A DNA stretch of 64,000 bases, from contig JAKAVC010000042.1 of the NCBI GenBank assembly GCA_021817345.1, forward strand, positions 39,336 to 103,335. The letters are read 5' to 3'. The translations under genes and the position numbers were made by a program. This document shows positions 37,791 to 46,761 of this stretch, in pieces (position 1 is the stretch's first letter; each line of letters begins with the position of its first letter). The notes beneath the pieces are model-generated. The model was not told the origin of the DNA. It was given only the letters and a program-made list of their open reading frames with translations, and ran no database searches. This DNA is from Deltaproteobacteria bacterium. Its GTDB lineage: Bacteria > Desulfobacterota > Binatia > Binatales > Binataceae.

Positions 37791-40019
37791 ATGAAAGGCC
37801 TGGTGTCCTTCGCGGCGGTCACCATCTGGTGCCTCATTTCCGTTCCGACGGCTCGGGCGATGAGCCCTGGCAAAACGTCCGCGGCGATTGCGCCGAACCG
37901 CGGCGCGAGCGGGGCGAAGCGTCGACTGTCTTCCGCGAAAAGAGCCGCCGCGGGCGGGAAAGCCGGTTCAGCCGCGAAAAAAATGCTTCTTGCGCCGGTC
38001 ATGGTCCGGGCGAAGCGGATGCTGCCGTCGCGCCTGATGAGCGACCGCGAGGCGCTCCGACGCCTTGAGCGCACGCCGGGAGCGGTCGCGCAGGTGACCG
38101 AGGCGCATATCCGCAGGCGCAAGGCCGCCAACCTCGGCGACGTGCTGGACTTCGTCCCCGGCGTAACCGCGGGCTCACGACAGGGCCCCGCGCAGGACAA
38201 TCAGATCTCGATCCGTGGCTCGGGCCTGGAAAGCAGGTACGAAACCTGGGGCATCAGCCTTCTGCAGGACGGCTTCGCGCTCAACCAGGCCGATGGGCTG
38301 GCGATCACGCAGCCGCTCGACATGGATTTCGTCAAGCGCATCGAGATCTACAAGGGAGCGAGCGCGCTGCGCTTCGGCGGCGACATGATGGGCGGAGCGA
38401 TCAACCTGGTTTCCAAGACGGGATACGACGCGCCGGCGCTGGAAACGGATTCGGAATTCGGTTCGTATGGTTTCGTCAAGAATTACGTCGGCTCGGGACA
38501 CGTGTCCGGGCCATGGGACTCATATCTGGGCCTCAGCGACACGGAGATGGGAGGGTTTCGCGGCCATGAGGTGGAGGTGCAGCGGCGGATGTTCGGCACG
38601 GTCGGGTACACGGGCGGCGACGGCGCGACGGTCCGCCTGGATACGTCGTACCTGAGCGACAGCGAAGACCTGCCGGGCGAGGTGACACGCAGCGAACTGG
38701 TCAACAACCCGACGCAGCCCGACCCGACCTACCTTGCCGACCGTGCCGCGCGCCAGTTCGATTTCATGCGCGGGGGCCTGACCGTCACGAAGCCGATCGG
38801 CGAGGACCAGTTGCTCGAAGTGTACGCGCAGTTCTACTGGCACGATTATGAGAATCCACTGCCGTTTGCCATCGTCGAAGGAAGCACATACGCCTGGAAC
38901 GGCGAGGCGCGCTATCTCAACCATGCGCGGCTCTTCAACCACCGCAATTATCTGACCGCCGGACTTCAGTACGGCGGCACGATGTGGAAGGACCTCAATT
39001 ACGTCAACGAAAAGGGTGAAACGGGCGCCGCGCTCAGAAACCAGTGGGATCGCGCGCTCGCGCTCGGCCTGTATGCCGAGGACGACTTCGACGTGACGCG
39101 CAAGCTTGGCCTGGTGATCGGCGGCAGGCTCGATTACGCGCGGCGCTCGGTATCGGGATTCGCGTCAGCCAGGGATTATGCGCCGACCGGAGCGGCCAAT
39201 TTCTTTTCGGGCCTTTCGCCGAGAGCCGGCTTCGTTTACCGGCTCGAACCGGCCGTGCAGTTCTTCGGAAACATCAGCCGCGCCTATCAGCCGCCGATTC
39301 TCAAAGAGGAAGAGGCTCCCGACGAGAACCCCGCCACCGCAAGCGTGGGCACGCTTCGCGCGGAGCGTGGATGGCAATTCGAGACCGGCGCGCGCGGTTC
39401 GTGGAAGAAGCGCTTCCAGTGGGACGTCGCGGCTTACGATTATGAGATCCACAACGAGATTCTGAACTTCAACCGGCTTCCGTTCCCGGGCGCCAACTTC
39501 GTCATCCCAAGCTACATCAACGCGCCGCGCACGCGTCATACCGGGGTCGAGGCGGGGTTCGGCGCGGCGCTGCTCAGAAACGTATCGCGCCTTTTGGGGT
39601 TCGAGGGACCGCCCGACCGAATTGCCGCGCGCGTCGCCTACACGTGGTCATATTTCCGCTTCGTCAACAATCCCACCTATGGCAACAACGAGATACCGGG
39701 GCTGGCGCCCGAAAACCGGATCGACGCGGAAGTCACCTATCAGAACGAAAACGGCTTCTGGCTGCAGCCCTACGTCTATACGGTGCCGGGCGGATGGGCG
39801 GTGAACAGCCTCAATACGGTTTACGCGCCCCCCTATACGCTGGTGGGCGTGCGCAGCGGCTACGACTACAAGCCGTGGCGTTGCCGGCTGTTCTTCGAAG
39901 CCTCGAATCTGACTAACGCGTCGTGGGCCGCGGCGATTGCGCCGGACGCCGGCGACCAGCGCTATTTCGATCCGGGCGACGGGCGGAGCTTTTACGGCGG
40001 AATCGCATGGCATCTGTAA
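37791..40019 (+). CDS. TonB-dependent outer-membrane receptor
   Basis: 742 aa; plug domain NLGDVLDFVPGVTAGSRQGPAQDNQISIRGSGLESRY, VKRIEIYKGASALRFGGDMMGGAINLVSKTG; terminal barrel strand GGIAWHL. Confidence 0.94.
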   Translation: MKGLVSFAAVTIWCLISVPTARAMSPGKTSAAIAPNRGASGAKRRLSSAKRAAAGGKAGSAAKKMLLAPVMVRAKRMLPSRLMSDREALRRLERTPGAVAQVTEAHIRRRKAANLGDVLDFVPGVTAGSRQGPAQDNQISIRGSGLESRYETWGISLLQDGFALNQADGLAITQPLDMDFVKRIEIYKGASALRFGGDMMGGAINLVSKTGYDAPALETDSEFGSYGFVKNYVGSGHVSGPWDSYLGLSDTEMGGFRGHEVEVQRRMFGTVGYTGGDGATVRLDTSYLSDSEDLPGEVTRSELVNNPTQPDPTYLADRAARQFDFMRGGLTVTKPIGEDQLLEVYAQFYWHDYENPLPFAIVEGSTYAWNGEARYLNHARLFNHRNYLTAGLQYGGTMWKDLNYVNEKGETGAALRNQWDRALALGLYAEDDFDVTRKLGLVIGGRLDYARRSVSGFASARDYAPTGAANFFSGLSPRAGFVYRLEPAVQFFGNISRAYQPPILKEEEAPDENPATASVGTLRAERGWQFETGARGSWKKRFQWDVAAYDYEIHNEILNFNRLPFPGANFVIPSYINAPRTRHTGVEAGFGAALLRNVSRLLGFEGPPDRIAARVAYTWSYFRFVNNPTYGNNEIPGLAPENRIDAEVTYQNENGFWLQPYVYTVPGGWAVNSLNTVYAPPYTLVGVRSGYDYKPWRCRLFFEASNLTNASWAAAIAPDAGDQRYFDPGDGRSFYGGIAWHL

Positions 40020-40843
40020 GGCACATCCGGAATTCCGAGCGCGGCCGGGATGCGCAGCGGAGCGTATCGAGCGGGAACTCGACGGAGCAACCCAAAGACG
40101 GGCGTCGCGGGCGATTGATGCCCGGCGCCTCCGCGTTCCTGCTTTCGATCCTCGCACACGCTCTACTGATCGGCGGCGTCATATGGTTCGTCGGGATTCC
40201 CAAAGGGCTCGCGCCGGTCGAGCCTATCCGCATCTCGTTGTTCGCCCCGGGCGCATCCGGCCCGGAACAAAGGCCTTCCGCCGCGCCTGCGCCGGTTCGT
40301 CGCACGAACAAAATCGTCGCGCCGCCGCATAAGGACACGGTCTTGCACCGAAAGAAGGTGCGGAAGAAAGTCGTGCGGGCTCACGCGATTTCACGGCGCG
40401 CCGAAATCGTCGTTGAAAAAAAGCCGCCCGCGCAATCATCGGAACGCGAGACGAAAAGCGTTTCAGGCACCCGCAACGTGGTCCCCGGACAGTCCGCGGG
40501 CTCGGCTGGCGGCGCAGCCGGCCGGCGGAGTCTCGGATTGGCCAGCACCGGTCCGTTTGCCGCGGGCACCGTGGCCCATCCGCCGCGAATTCTCAAGCGC
40601 GTGATGCCGCAATATCCGCTGCGCGCCCGCGTCAGGGGCGTTGCCGGGCGGGTGGTTGTCGAAGTCGTGCTCGGACGCGACGGCGGAATCCGCAAGCTGA
40701 CCGTGGTACATTCGGTCCCGCTCCTTGACAGGGCGGCGATACGCGCGGTCCGCCAATGGCGGTTCAGCCCGGCGCGCGACGCCAGCGAAACGCCGGTAAG
40801 CGTGATCGTCGATATCCCGGTCGTCTTCGCACTTGACGATTGA
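40007..40843 (+). CDS. tonB: energy transducer TonB
   Basis: N-terminal TM, Pro/Lys-rich linker, C-terminal PPRILKRVMPQYPLRARVRGVAGRVVVEVVLGRDGGIRKLTVVHSVPLLDRAAIRAVRQWRFSP; overlaps the receptor gene. Confidence 0.92.
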   Translation: MASVRHIRNSERGRDAQRSVSSGNSTEQPKDGRRGRLMPGASAFLLSILAHALLIGGVIWFVGIPKGLAPVEPIRISLFAPGASGPEQRPSAAPAPVRRTNKIVAPPHKDTVLHRKKVRKKVVRAHAISRRAEIVVEKKPPAQSSERETKSVSGTRNVVPGQSAGSAGGAAGRRSLGLASTGPFAAGTVAHPPRILKRVMPQYPLRARVRGVAGRVVVEVVLGRDGGIRKLTVVHSVPLLDRAAIRAVRQWRFSPARDASETPVSVIVDIPVVFALDD

Positions 40844-40963
40844 GTGCCAGCGCGCCGTGGCGCGCCCGATCCGTGCTTGCGGGGCGGACCCGCGCGGGCC
40901 TATACGAAAGTTGCGGCGCGCGTCTTGCCGCGGGCTTTGCAACTCGAACCAGCGAGGGAATCC

Positions 40964-42205
40964 ATGACCAGCGAATCCCACACCGGAATGTCAATTTCGC
41001 GCCTGGAGAGGATCGATCGCTTCCTTGGCGAGCGCTATGTCGACACGGGCAGAATCCCGGGCGCCGTGATGCTTATCGCGCGGCGCGGCGAGGTCGCCCA
41101 TCTGAGCGCGCTCGGGAACGCCGACTGCGAGCGGCGCAGGCCGATGCGCGAAGACACCATCTTCCGCATCTACTCGATGAGCAAGCCGATCACGAGTGTC
41201 GCCTTCATGATGCTGGTGGAGCGGGGGATGGTCGCGCTCGACGATCCGGTCGATAAGTTCATCCCCGAATGGAAGGATCTGGGCGTTTACCAAGGCGGCT
41301 TCATGGAGACGTTCCGCGTCGAGCGCCCGGCGCGCCAGATGCTGATAATCGACTTGCTGCGTCATACGTCGGGACTCACCTACGGCTTTCAGCAGACCAC
41401 CAACGTGGACGCGGCCTACCGAAAGCTCCACGTCGGCGAACGGCTCGGCGACGCCACGCTCGACACGATGATCGAGCGGCTTTCCCACCTGCCGCTCGAG
41501 TTTTCGCCCGGCACGGCGTGGAACTACTCGGTATCGACCGACGTGCTCGGATACCTCGTCGGGAAAATCTCCGGCGTTCCATTCGACCAGTTCGTCCGCC
41601 GCAACATCCTGGAGCCGCTCGGGATGACCGACACGGGCTTTCACGTCTCCGCTGAAAAGCAGGCGCGCTTTGCAGCGTGCTACTCGGCGACACCAAGAGG
41701 CACGATGATGCTGTTCGACGACCCGGCGAAGAGTCCATATCTCGAACCGCCGACCTTGTTTTCGGGCGGCGGCGGGATGGTATCGACGGTCGGCGACTAT
41801 TTGCGCTTCTGCCGGATGCTTCTCAACGGAGGGAAGCTCGACGGCGCGCAGCTCCTGAGCCCCAAGACGATCCAGTTGATGACGCTGAACCATCTGCCCG
41901 GCGGCAAGGACCTGCCCGCGATGTCGCGTTCGCTGTTCAGCGAAGTGACGTACAACGGCGTCGGGTTTGGGCTCGGCTTCGCGGTAACGCTCGATACGAC
42001 GCGGACGATGCTCCCGGGCAGTGTCGGCGATTACTCGTGGGGCGGAGCGGCTTCGACCTATTTCTGGATCGATCCGCAAGAGGAGCTGATAGCGATCTTC
42101 ATGACACAGCTGATGCCGCCGAGCACCTATCCGATTCGCCGCGAACTGCGCACGCTGGTGTACTCGGCGTTCACCGAGTCGAACGGCGAGCGGCCGCGGC
42201 CGTAG
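40964..42205 (+). CDS. serine hydrolase, beta-lactamase class C/esterase family
   Basis: TIFRIYSMSKPITSVAFMMLVERG (SxxK), WNYSVSTDVLGYLVGKISG (YxS/N), SWGGAASTYFWIDPQEELIAIFMTQLMP. Confidence 0.92.
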   Translation: MTSESHTGMSISRLERIDRFLGERYVDTGRIPGAVMLIARRGEVAHLSALGNADCERRRPMREDTIFRIYSMSKPITSVAFMMLVERGMVALDDPVDKFIPEWKDLGVYQGGFMETFRVERPARQMLIIDLLRHTSGLTYGFQQTTNVDAAYRKLHVGERLGDATLDTMIERLSHLPLEFSPGTAWNYSVSTDVLGYLVGKISGVPFDQFVRRNILEPLGMTDTGFHVSAEKQARFAACYSATPRGTMMLFDDPAKSPYLEPPTLFSGGGGMVSTVGDYLRFCRMLLNGGKLDGAQLLSPKTIQLMTLNHLPGGKDLPAMSRSLFSEVTYNGVGFGLGFAVTLDTTRTMLPGSVGDYSWGGAASTYFWIDPQEELIAIFMTQLMPPSTYPIRRELRTLVYSAFTESNGERPRP

Positions 42206-42678: not shown

Positions 42679-42990
42679 TCAATGGGACTGCTCGAGGTAG
42701 TAGGCCACGGCTCTGGCGTCCTGCGGTGGCAGATTGGCGAGAGTCCGCATGTGCATTATGATTTGCTGCCACTGCGCCGGTGAAAATTGCGCGCCAGGGC
42801 GGGCATTATGGCACTGCATACACTTGACCGGCCATAACCTCGCCCCGCGCAAAAACATCGCCTGCCGCTCGCTCGCCGTGGTCCCGGGTGGAGGCGCCAC
42901 GGCCGGCGCCGTCGCGCTGGAACACCCGGCCACCAGCAAGCAGATGGCCAAAACCATTTTGCTCCAAAGACGCACACTTCGATCGGACAT
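42679..42990 (-). CDS. small monoheme c-type cytochrome lipoprotein
   Basis: Lipobox LLVAGCSS; single CMQCH heme motif; C-terminal LPPQDARAVAYYLEQSH. Confidence 0.82.
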   Translation of the reverse strand: MSDRSVRLWSKMVLAICLLVAGCSSATAPAVAPPPGTTASERQAMFLRGARLWPVKCMQCHNARPGAQFSPAQWQQIIMHMRTLANLPPQDARAVAYYLEQSH

Positions 42991-43016
42991 CTGATTAACT
43001 CCTCTCAGGTGGCGGG

Positions 43017-44582
43017 CTAGAAGCCGATCGCAAACTGGGTTAGGAAGGCGCGATCGTTGGGAGTCGCACCGACAGGCAGACGAGTGTCACTGTAGTAGCC
43101 CCCACTTTCAGGCATCTCCAGGTCGAGCTCGTTCTGCCAGACAATCGAGGGTGCGATCCAGTAGTCCAGGCCAAGAGCGAGTTCGCGCGAGTACGGAGTG
43201 AACAGTGCGGGCGAACCGTTAAAGCCCAGCGAGATTGCCGACACTCCAGGCGCAGCATACGGCGTTTCGCCGAACAGCACCGCAGGCTGGTCTACGCCCG
43301 AGAACCGAACCAGCGGCTCGAGCTTTTGGAATTGGCGGTTCACCGTGTCGCCGACCCACGGTAGCTGGTAGCCGTTCAGGAAATAACCGACCTCGAACCA
43401 GAAGCCTTCGCGATGGTCGGAGCCGACACCCACCGGCATCTGCCGAAACATCTGCATATACTCGCCACGCGCCTGCAGATTGCCGCGATGGTAGGCAAAA
43501 TCGACACCCCAGGTATACATCCAGAGGTTGTCGAAGTACTTGCTGTCGTACGTGGACGCCCCGAGCTCGAGATAGCCAAGGTTGGAATCAACCGGCAGCG
43601 GGTAGAACCGGAACCTTGCACCGTAGCCGAGCCCATTGCTCTGGTAGTGAATGTTGGTCTGGCCGTTCAGTTCGTCGCCCGGAACAACGCAACTTACCGT
43701 GGCACCCGCGGGGCAATTGGCGAACGTCGCTCCGTTGCCCATCCAGACCGTGTAGTCGACATCCTGGCCCAAGCGTCCCCACTGAAACGCGCCGCGCGCC
43801 TGCATTCCAATGTCCGTGGGCGGCACAATCGCGTTGATATCATAAGGCACGGGCGCCGTTATGAATCGATTCACCCACACCGCGCTGTAGTCCTCGTAAA
43901 ATTCGCCGAACGGCATGTCAAAGATTCCCGCGACCACCTCCAGGTAATCGTTAAGGAACAATTGAAAATCCGCCACCGGCAGGGTGTAGTGGGTCGTAGT
44001 TTCGTTGAGATGGCCTGTCACAGTGCCTTCGAACAGAATCCAGGGTTCAACCTGGTAGAGAAAGATGGGCGAGAACTTCAGGTTGAAGGTGTTGTTCGTC
44101 GAATGAATCTGGTCTTGGCCTCGATCATAGATGAAGTCGAATGCGGCGTCGCCCACCAGCGTGACTTGATGGCTTCCCAGATAGCTTGAGAACTCGCTAC
44201 CAAAGGTTCGCCCGCTCGTAGCGGCCTGAACTTTGGTCTCAAGCTGGCTGAGTTTGCTTTCGGTCTGGGCTCGCGCCTGCTTGCTCTTCGCCTGCGCCTG
44301 CTGAGTCTCCGCTTGGAGCTGGCGAGCGGCCTTCTCAAGCCGCGCATCGCGTGCCTCGATCGCGTTGATCTGTTGCTGCAACTGGCGGAGCGCCTTGCGC
44401 TCGCTGCGCCGCTCCGCTTCCACCCGCTTAAGCTCGCGTTTTACTTGCTCAAGCGATGTCGAGCTTGAGGCGGTTGAAGCCGTTTGGGCTACGGCAACGC
44501 CGCCCGCGACGAGCACAATCGCCAGCGACAACGCAAGTGACTGACGCAAAATGCCCCTTGAGACATTATTGAAGAGATACAC
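43017..44582 (-). CDS. outer-membrane beta-barrel porin with N-terminal coiled coil
   Basis: 521 aa; signal peptide; LEQVKRELKRVEAERRSERKALRQLQQQINAIEARDARLEKAARQLQ coiled coil; alternating aromatic barrel strands; C-terminal FAIGF. Confidence 0.8.
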   Translation of the reverse strand: MYLFNNVSRGILRQSLALSLAIVLVAGGVAVAQTASTASSSTSLEQVKRELKRVEAERRSERKALRQLQQQINAIEARDARLEKAARQLQAETQQAQAKSKQARAQTESKLSQLETKVQAATSGRTFGSEFSSYLGSHQVTLVGDAAFDFIYDRGQDQIHSTNNTFNLKFSPIFLYQVEPWILFEGTVTGHLNETTTHYTLPVADFQLFLNDYLEVVAGIFDMPFGEFYEDYSAVWVNRFITAPVPYDINAIVPPTDIGMQARGAFQWGRLGQDVDYTVWMGNGATFANCPAGATVSCVVPGDELNGQTNIHYQSNGLGYGARFRFYPLPVDSNLGYLELGASTYDSKYFDNLWMYTWGVDFAYHRGNLQARGEYMQMFRQMPVGVGSDHREGFWFEVGYFLNGYQLPWVGDTVNRQFQKLEPLVRFSGVDQPAVLFGETPYAAPGVSAISLGFNGSPALFTPYSRELALGLDYWIAPSIVWQNELDLEMPESGGYYSDTRLPVGATPNDRAFLTQFAIGF

Positions 44583-44892
44583 GTGCGCCTCCTCCCTAGT
44601 CCAAAGTTCCTGCGCGATTCCGCGCGCACCCCTCTCGGCGGCGTCCTGACCTAACCGTATCCGCCGCCGACTATGAGCAAGAACCGCGCCGCGTGAACAT
44701 CCCGCAGGCCGGAAACTTCACTTGCCGCGATTTTGCGAAAACTTCAAGCAGCATTCCTAACGATTGCTTTTATCACGAGTATTTTATCAGCCATGCTGGC
44801 TACGCAGCGCTTTTTTGCCTTATCGTGGTCGGGCGCGCCATCTCCCGTTACCCTGCCAAACCGCCATCGCTTGCGGCGTCACGAGCGTCACC

Positions 44893-45276
44893 TCACTTGG
44901 ACGCGGTGTGCTGCGGGCAGAACTTACGCACGTACTTGACCAGGTCGTGAATCTGCGGGTCGTTGAAGGAGCCTCCCCACGCGGGCATGTTGGGGCTCAC
45001 CCCGACGCTCGCGCCACCGTTCTTGATGGCGTTGAACAAGGTCTGGTCCGTGATCGTTTTCATCACTTTGCAGTTGGCGAAATCCCTTGGACGCGGACTG
45101 AGGAATGCGCCCAGCGGGCCGTCGCCCCCGCCATCCTTGCCGTGACAGCCCGCGCAATACTGCTGATATTCGGTCGGCGCCTGACCGAAACTCGCCGCCA
45201 TCACTCTCGGTGCGCATGCCACGAATGCAATCACTACCGTTGTGGCCGCAAGTGTCATCCGTCTTTTCACTTCCAT
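44893..45276 (-). CDS. secreted monoheme c-type cytochrome
   Basis: Signal peptide then APTEYQQYCAGCHGKDGGGDGPLGAFLSPRPRDF...NMPAWGGSFNDPQIHDLVKYVRKFC. Confidence 0.9.
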   Translation of the reverse strand: MEVKRRMTLAATTVVIAFVACAPRVMAASFGQAPTEYQQYCAGCHGKDGGGDGPLGAFLSPRPRDFANCKVMKTITDQTLFNAIKNGGASVGVSPNMPAWGGSFNDPQIHDLVKYVRKFCPQHTASK

Positions 45277-45299
45277 CCCTGCCTTTCTTCCGTAAGAAG

Positions 45300-45480
45300 T
45301 TACTGAACCTTCTTCCGCCTCCAAGCACCAACAAGGCGCGAAACACGCGCCCTGCTCTGCGGCCAGACAGCCGGATAGAGTACCATGGCAAGGTGCGCAA
45401 GCTGCAAGTGTCCCATTCGGCAAACGTTTCCTTCCGCGGAATCACTCATCCCGCTGTTGCCGATGGCGACACCTTGTGCG
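45300..45480 (-). pseudogene. possible decayed c-type cytochrome fragment
   Basis: Frame just upstream of the intact cytochrome reads RLPNGTLAACAPCHGTLSG (CxxCH) with no plausible full-length ORF. Confidence 0.35.
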
Positions 45481-45950
45481 CCTGCCACCCCCGCCGGTCT
45501 GGACGCGCGGCCAAGAATCCCCCGTGTCCGCGACCAGCGTCGCTCAAATCGGGACTTTCGCGGCGTGCGGCCGAAATCAGACACATCGAGCTTTCGAGAA
45601 GAGGCGGCCATTTCTTGACGCGGAGCAGTTTGCGAGTCGCGTGCCAATTAGAAGAGAACGAAAAATAAGCCTCTTTCCATTCGACAGAGTAATCCAACTG
45701 GGTCTGTTGGAGCCGTTTGACTCCAATGGCTACGCAACCCTTGGCCGCACCCCGAACCAGAGGCCCATATGCACTAAAATCAACCATTTACGCCACAACC
45801 GAAGTTCCCGAAGGCGAAAACCCGACGGATGTGGTGAGTAAGTTTTCCTGAAGTATTTCGAGGCTAATTTGTCCTCTGACTTATGCGCGCCTGAACGATG
45901 CAAATGAGCACTTCTCCTCTTATGACGACGCCGAACGCAGGCTACAATAT

Positions 45951-46244
45951 TTGGCGATGGCGGCAGCGGTCGAAATTGCCAAAATCGAGAAGGATTGGAG
46001 CGAACGTGGCTTTGGATGCGGCTTATGGGTCGATCCGCCCGGGCAGGTCTGGAAGGACTATGTTCACGCGGTGGATGAACTCCTGATGGTGGTCGAAGGG
46101 AACCTTGAGATCGAGATCGAAGGCAAGCCGTTCAGACCCGAACCCGGAGAGGAGCTGTTTATCCCGGCAAACACCCGCCATAGCGTGCGTAATCTGGGAA
46201 AAACCACCGCGCGATGGCTTTATGGCTATCGCAGGCGTCGCTGA
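45951..46244 (+). CDS. cupin-domain protein
   Basis: HAVDELLMVVEGNLEIEIEGKPFRPEPGEELFIPANTRHSVRNLGKTTARWLYGY. Confidence 0.88.
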   Translation: MAMAAAVEIAKIEKDWSERGFGCGLWVDPPGQVWKDYVHAVDELLMVVEGNLEIEIEGKPFRPEPGEELFIPANTRHSVRNLGKTTARWLYGYRRRR

Positions 46245-46275
46245 ATCGTCGAGCGGCGCCTGGATCGGGCCTGCT

Positions 46276-46761
46276 CTATTTGACGCCGGCTTCTATCTCA
46301 TTGGCGTACTTCTCAAGAATTTTAGCCTTTCCCTCCAGCATCTGAGCGCGCAGCGTGAGCATGTCGGCGCGCATCCTCATCATTAGCGCAACCCCCTTGG
46401 GGTCGCGTCTAGCCGCTGCCAGCACCCCCATGCCCATCATCCGGCGACGCATGCCCATCCCGCCCATCATCGGGTGCATCATAGGGCCCATTGCGCCGCC
46501 CTGACACGGGCACCGATGCCCCATCATCATGCCGGGGCCCATCCCACGCATCATCGGGCCCATCCCCATGCCTAATCCCATCATCGGAGCGCCTGGCGGA
46601 GTCCGCGGCGAAGGCATCGCCTGCTGGGACTCAGCGGCTAGGGTAAGTTGCTGCCGAGCGCCCGCGTTGGCCGCTTCGAACGCAAACGCGGCTGCGCTCC
46701 ACAGCACCCAAGCAAGGATGGCCAAGCCGGCCGTTCCGAGAATCCAATCGATGTGTTTCAT
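46276..46761 (-). CDS. Met-rich periplasmic or membrane-anchored protein
   Basis: 161 aa; N-terminal TM; PMMGLGMGMGPMMRGMGPGMMMGHRCPCQGGAMGPMMHPMMGGMGMRRRMMGMG. Confidence 0.75.
   Translation of the reverse strand: MKHIDWILGTAGLAILAWVLWSAAAFAFEAANAGARQQLTLAAESQQAMPSPRTPPGAPMMGLGMGMGPMMRGMGPGMMMGHRCPCQGGAMGPMMHPMMGGMGMRRRMMGMGVLAAARRDPKGVALMMRMRADMLTLRAQMLEGKAKILEKYANEIEAGVK

Follow-up and report, generated by a model that had tools for sequence, protein, structure and literature searches.

A gene pair encoding an outer-membrane-type β-barrel and a single-heme cytochrome, here termed c1, is present in a window of 64,000 nucleotides (contig JAKAVC010000042.1) from a Deltaproteobacteria bacterium of the class Binatia and is conserved, with c1 in the same position, in all 45 loci of this barrel found in this class. 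With moderate confidence, the pair is read as a split, Cyc2-like porin-cytochrome in which the barrel would provide a pore, c1 would be its dedicated one-heme partner and a soluble redox substrate would react inside the pore. The source genome comprises 3.54 Mb in 176 contigs, and its named relatives belong to the Binatia, among them Candidatus Binatus and metagenome-assembled genomes of Binataceae.

The barrel gene (43017-44582, minus strand) starts with GTG and encodes 521 residues comprising a signal peptide, a periplasmic coiled coil and a 16-strand OprP-type barrel with the C-terminus ...FAIGF. Downstream of it, after a gap of 26 bp that makes this the only tight pair in the locus, lies c1 (42679-42990, minus strand; 103 residues), with a lipobox VAGC and a sole heme-binding motif, CMQCH (42808-42822, minus strand). 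A second cytochrome, c2 (44893-45276, minus strand), is a small secreted class-I monoheme protein whose only heme-binding motif is CAGCH (45142-45156, minus strand); it lies 310 bp upstream of the barrel in the window and directly downstream of c1 in most relatives. In a Pfam scan c2 scored above the cut-off as Cytochrome_CBB3; c1 narrowly missed the thresholds of the cytochrome c families, and only coiled-coil matches were obtained with the barrel protein. All three are conserved proteins across the class, so they are not chance open reading frames. The original prediction, made from the DNA alone, had described a monoheme lipoprotein cytochrome, a coiled-coil barrel and a second cytochrome on the minus strand, and all three were confirmed at these positions.

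The linkage of the barrel with c1 was examined in 57 related genomes searched for the barrel and in 118 genomes of the class searched with c1 and with the barrel. The barrel is present in 31 of the 57, and in all 34 first-round loci fetched from them c1 follows the barrel immediately and has the same orientation. The addition of 11 further loci, which include five other Binatia families, brings the count to 45 of 45 Binatia loci with c1 directly downstream. A class-wide search with c1 led to loci in other families with diverged barrels, five of which have c1 right behind the barrel; the remaining further loci come from four additional genomes and one extra named contig. The diverged barrels are homologous to the first set (hhalign E 2e-102). 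Among the 118 class genomes, 28 have c1 at E<1e-13, and all 28 have the barrel at E<1e-50. As a control, c1 was found beside none of the 13 distant Porin_O_P-type coiled-coil paralogues in other Binatia that have downstream sequence to check (same superfamily, E 1e-9 to 1e-16 in the class barrel search). The predicted barrel-cytochrome linkage is thus both conserved and specific. Outside Binatia a phylum-wide c1 search produced weak matches only, and the four inspected were without a recognised barrel beside them.

The two genes are also inherited together. Four genomes hold two copies of the module, and across species a given type of barrel goes with the corresponding type of c1: the second copies of genomes G015 and G029, for example, share 76% (barrel) and 90% (c1) identity with each other and 50% (barrel) and 51-54% (c1) with their own genome-mates. 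In the same sense, the distance matrices of barrel and c1 correlate at 0.77, a value reached in 0 of 2000 permutations. At one locus (L058, G020:C32:9473-10914) a decayed barrel copy with several stops adjoins an intact c1 and a cupredoxin. The pair was not found described in a literature search, the limited coverage of which makes this weak evidence.

The AlphaFold2 (AF2) model of the barrel protein, built with 30 family sequences, contains a helix at residues 45-121 followed by 16 strands (mean predicted local distance difference test score, pLDDT, 66.6, which is of moderate confidence). The helix is the N-terminal coiled coil (44220-44450, minus strand), predicted as a single long helix. 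The best match of this model among solved structures in Foldseek is OprP (2o4v, E 7e-12). PF07396 (Porin_O_P) is matched by 13 of the 30 family members at E<0.01 (best E 4.9e-7), a profile of the diverged members matches Porin P at 6e-5, and a profile search gave no PF07396 match in the window barrel or elsewhere in the window's own genome. The structural match, together with PF07396 in the relatives and the Porin P profile match, points to an OprP-like fold for the protein; its location in the outer membrane is predicted from these sequence features.

The charge of this barrel differs from that of the phosphate-selective porins that share its fold. The window barrel domain contains 18 basic residues (3 Lys and 15 Arg) against 41 Asp and Glu, whereas an OprP subunit has 47 Arg and Lys (PMC5877670), so that, judged by composition, the richness of the OprP arginine ladder and lysine cluster is not matched. 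The acidic composition favours a cation or a neutral solute. A further difference from OprP and OprO is the permanent pairing with c1. The earlier concern that the barrel might be a generic phosphate/anion porin is therefore disfavoured, despite the OprP-type fold. Neither of the two observations named in advance as counting against the module (loss of linkage or a generic anion porin) applies: c1 stays linked to the barrel throughout, and the acidic barrel is unlike a phosphate porin.

The best-conserved loop of the barrel is the long one between strands 5 and 6 (residues 223-255; 43818-43916, minus strand), in the position of constriction loop L3, a placement inferred from the AF2 strand order. 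It has a mean majority frequency of 0.79 compared with 0.42-0.59 in the other loops and carries the motif FDxPFGDxYExxSxxWVNRFxTxPLPYG. The loop NCPAGATVSC, which had been singled out in the original prediction, is indeed present, but it is a variable extracellular loop (L4) whose cysteine pair is missing in most family members, and it was rejected as a functional loop.

The N-terminal coiled coil preceding the barrel resembles that of FapF, and the coiled-coil part of FapF is matched by 12 of the 30 family members. However, the match is confined to residues 28-142, mostly coiled coil, and the window protein scores 21 bits against a cut-off of 700. No fap genes occur among the conserved neighbours of the barrel in the 34 loci. 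FapF-type secretion was rejected given this partial match far under the cut-off and the lack of fap genes nearby.

In the family alignment of c1 the residues C57, C60, H61, W74, I77, H80 and M81 are invariant, and each of the 26 aligned members has one CXXCH. A canonical lipobox is found only in the window's sub-clade and in one doubtful case; most relatives are without it and appear to use ordinary signal peptides. Thus, c1 of the window does carry a lipobox, as had been proposed, but lipoprotein anchoring is not a general feature of its relatives. The top structure matches of c1, to WD-repeat designs, were discarded as an artefact of the signal peptide. In the relative L083 the barrel and c1 are in frame, and an AF2 model of the two, read through the stop codon, folded with a pLDDT of 73.

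The second cytochrome, c2, is near 27 of the 34 barrels. A plastocyanin-family cupredoxin is near five others, giving 32 of 34 for the two together; the cupredoxin replaces c2 downstream of c1 in four loci and lies upstream of the barrel in the fifth. That a cupredoxin can stand in for a small cytochrome is what would be expected if both are soluble electron carriers, and c2 is probably the soluble carrier of the module.

Further redox proteins recur beside these genes in part of the sample. A GltD-like flavoprotein, a Rieske protein, a cytochrome b and a tetraheme cytochrome c occur in 8-9 of the 34 loci, and locus L160 is a further case of a barrel clustered with Rieske and cytochrome b genes. 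The tetraheme protein of this bc-type cluster is the sole conserved multiheme neighbour of the barrel. Within the source genome itself, a NirK-like gene and a cytochrome b are on other contigs, the latter preceded by a c2 paralogue: at L186:4428-7189 (G000:C35) this paralogue is grouped with a Rieske-like protein and with the cytochrome b, which carries two CXXCH motifs. The contig ends just upstream of this cluster, where a barrel may yet lie.

A NirK-family copper protein is next in 10 loci, and one of these (L033) exceeds the NCBIfam nitrite reductase cut-off. This association could indicate a substrate-specific porin served by ordinary periplasmic carriers, in which a solute such as nitrite would be imported for a NirK-like reductase fed by c1 and c2, with no electrons transferred at the pore. 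The ExtI cluster of Geobacter sulfurreducens (extHIJKLMNOPQS) points the same way: its OprP-like porin, which weakly resembles the phosphate-selective porins, is encoded in a cluster that also specifies c-type cytochromes, cytochrome b and a Rieske protein, and when the porin is lost selenite and tellurite reduction, in which it has its reported role, falls (PMC5877670). Nevertheless, the NirK-like gene is missing from most module loci, whereas c1 is missing from none, and the other NirK-like copies tested are far under the cut-off and variable at the type-2 copper positions. In those of L032, L034, L037, L038, L042, L054 and L056 (cluster c3) and in G000:C83:5318-6265 the type-1 copper ligands are kept while the type-2, catalytic positions vary, and these proteins may not be nitrite reductases. 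An acidic pore would also be unexpected for an anion, and a homologous barrel in Legionella is covalently joined to cytochromes. On balance, an ordinary porin of this kind seems unlikely, although it is the strongest competitor of the split porin-cytochrome. The resemblance to the ExtI cluster also has limits, since the ext cytochromes are multiheme whereas the Binatia have the conserved monoheme c1; neither the multiheme cytochromes ExtKL, ExtM and ExtN nor the rhodanese ExtH recur beside the barrel in the 34 loci, and Rieske and cytochrome b genes accompany the barrel in the minority of loci given above, the cytochrome b of the window's genome being on another contig.

Homologues on plasmids of gammaproteobacteria provide a different line of evidence. 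Two tblastn searches of plasmids, one starting from a diverged barrel and the other from c1, converged on three loci, in Legionella anisa, Alteromonas macleodii KD01 and Glaciecola. At each of them the gene directly downstream of the barrel encodes a c1 domain joined to another cytochrome domain, of class I; the porin and this diheme cytochrome occupy L192:11911-15450 in Alteromonas and L193:12028-14297 in Glaciecola. In L. anisa (L191:10939-13215, plasmid NZ_CP082853.1) the barrel is itself the C-terminal part of a 758-residue protein with three N-terminal class-I cytochrome c domains, and a coiled-coil-like stretch lies between the second and third of these. The Legionella barrel matches the Binatia barrel set with an hhalign E of 2e-35 and was found by the window barrel itself at 2e-14. 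These fusions, of barrel to cytochrome and of c1 to a c2-like domain, are independent evidence that the parts work together.

The Alteromonas and Glaciecola pairs sit between copper-resistance genes (CopC/CopD/CusA-type, upstream) and a [NiFe] hydrogenase cluster, with Met-rich proteins directly downstream (two in Alteromonas and one checked in Glaciecola). In the window, a Met-rich secreted protein with an HRCPC motif, a charged helical C-terminus and no Pfam match is encoded at 46276-46761, 1 kb from c2, and a cupin at 45951-46244 on the plus strand. Together with the cupredoxins that take the place of c2 in some Binatia, these genes could suggest that the porin and cytochromes oxidize or scavenge Cu(I) with Met-rich and cupredoxin proteins, in line with the copper-type metal handling proposed earlier. 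However, neither the Met-rich protein nor the cupin is a conserved neighbour of the barrel in the 34 loci, and relatives match the Met-rich gene only weakly, over low-complexity sequence, on contigs that do not carry the barrel. This gene was accordingly rejected as part of the module; both genes exist as originally noted, but they lie outside the conserved unit. No copper-resistance cluster recurs beside the Binatia module, and the position of the Alteromonas pair between copper and hydrogenase islands means that the association may be incidental. Copper handling is thus improbable, the indications for it being circumstantial.

On the other side of the module, a plus-strand block at 37791-42205 encodes a TonB-dependent receptor (best NCBIfam match PqqU, far under the cut-off), TonB and a serine β-lactamase-family hydrolase. 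The same three gene families also lie downstream of the module in a same-genus genome (L059).

Like MtrCAB, MtoAB and PioAB, the module encodes an outer-membrane barrel with a c-type cytochrome, and bc-type complex genes are nearby in some loci, as might be expected of a true extracellular conduit to solid electron acceptors or donors. Those systems, however, combine a 26-stranded barrel with decaheme cytochromes (PMC8406198), whereas there are 16 strands and one heme here, and the conserved unit contains no multiheme outer-surface cytochrome. Because of its one heme and 16 strands the module is not an Mtr-type conduit, and transfer to a solid phase in the manner of MtrCAB is very improbable.

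Cyc2 offers a closer comparison, made here by fold, gene layout and motif. It contains a single heme, and its 16-strand barrel, OprO/OprP-like in fold, has a pore that the substrate must enter (PMC8406198); the window module shares the single heme and, from the AF2 strand count and the Foldseek match, the barrel type. The partners are also alike, a c-type carrier and a cupredoxin corresponding to Cyc1 and rusticyanin in the Acidithiobacillus rus operon (PMC8406198, PMC10654088). The heme domain, in contrast, is a separate downstream gene in the Binatia, and the N-terminus of the window barrel is a coiled coil without CXXCH. The Legionella homologue differs from Cyc2 in another way, its barrel being fused to three heme domains of the ordinary class-I type. 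By analogy the module would work like Cyc2 while lacking features that define it, namely the fusion of heme and barrel (in the window) and the FAR motif.

In the mechanism that we propose, the 16-strand acidic barrel would form the outer-membrane pore, with its coiled coil reaching into the periplasm and c1 placed at its periplasmic mouth. One heme on its own cannot bridge the outer membrane. The substrate would therefore have to reach c1 through the pore, as has been argued for Cyc2 (PMC8406198). It would be soluble and redox-active, with a metal cation or a different small solute more plausible than a solid, and would exchange electrons singly with the heme of c1. Electrons would then pass between c1 and c2, whose place a cupredoxin takes in some species. 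This carrier could link to the quinone pool through the Rieske/cytochrome b complex or to the NirK-like copper protein. The Rieske/cytochrome b complex is compatible with both directions of flow, from substrate oxidation into the chain and from the chain to an acceptor. The minimal monoheme trans-outer-membrane system originally suggested is thus retained as a conserved barrel-cytochrome unit, but not as a conduit; it is better described as a pore that may bring a soluble substrate to the heme.

Several points weigh against this mechanism. c1 may work as a soluble carrier in the periplasm without contacting the pore at all. The correlation between the barrel and c1 distance matrices given above partly reflects shared ancestry. 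Finally, no iron-oxidation marker motif was observed in the fetched DNA: the Cyc2 motif, defined as AXPXFAR[QK][TY] upstream of CXXCH, was sought in its core form PxFAR[QK][TY] before CXXCH and was absent in any frame from 202 sequences, made up of the window and the loci fetched and amounting to 3.5 million residues in translation, a search that did not extend to the rest of the window's genome.

A broader proposal, which we advance more tentatively than the mechanism itself, is that Binatia and, via plasmids, some gammaproteobacteria possess a third porin-cytochrome architecture. It would be split, with one heme and 16 strands, would oxidize or reduce a dissolved substrate inside the pore and would be connected to the respiratory chain by a cytochrome or, interchangeably, a cupredoxin, together with a Rieske/cytochrome b complex, with the Legionella fusions showing a possible origin of Cyc2-like proteins.

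To our knowledge, the outer-membrane electron systems recognized so far are either multiheme conduits or fused Cyc2. The present results point to the barrel-c1 pair of the Binatia, which are soil and sediment bacteria, as an undescribed two-piece relative of the iron-oxidizing porin-cytochromes. The published description of electron transport in this class mentions no outer-membrane system (PMC8262859), and the barrel together with a cytochrome c1 of the W..I..HM type provides a searchable marker for one in an uncultured class. Porins annotated as 'phosphate-selective' can be tied to electron transfer, and the natural series from separate to fused proteins offers material for studying the origin of Cyc2-like proteins. 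If the proposed mechanism is true, a conserved split one-heme version would widen what counts as a porin-cytochrome.

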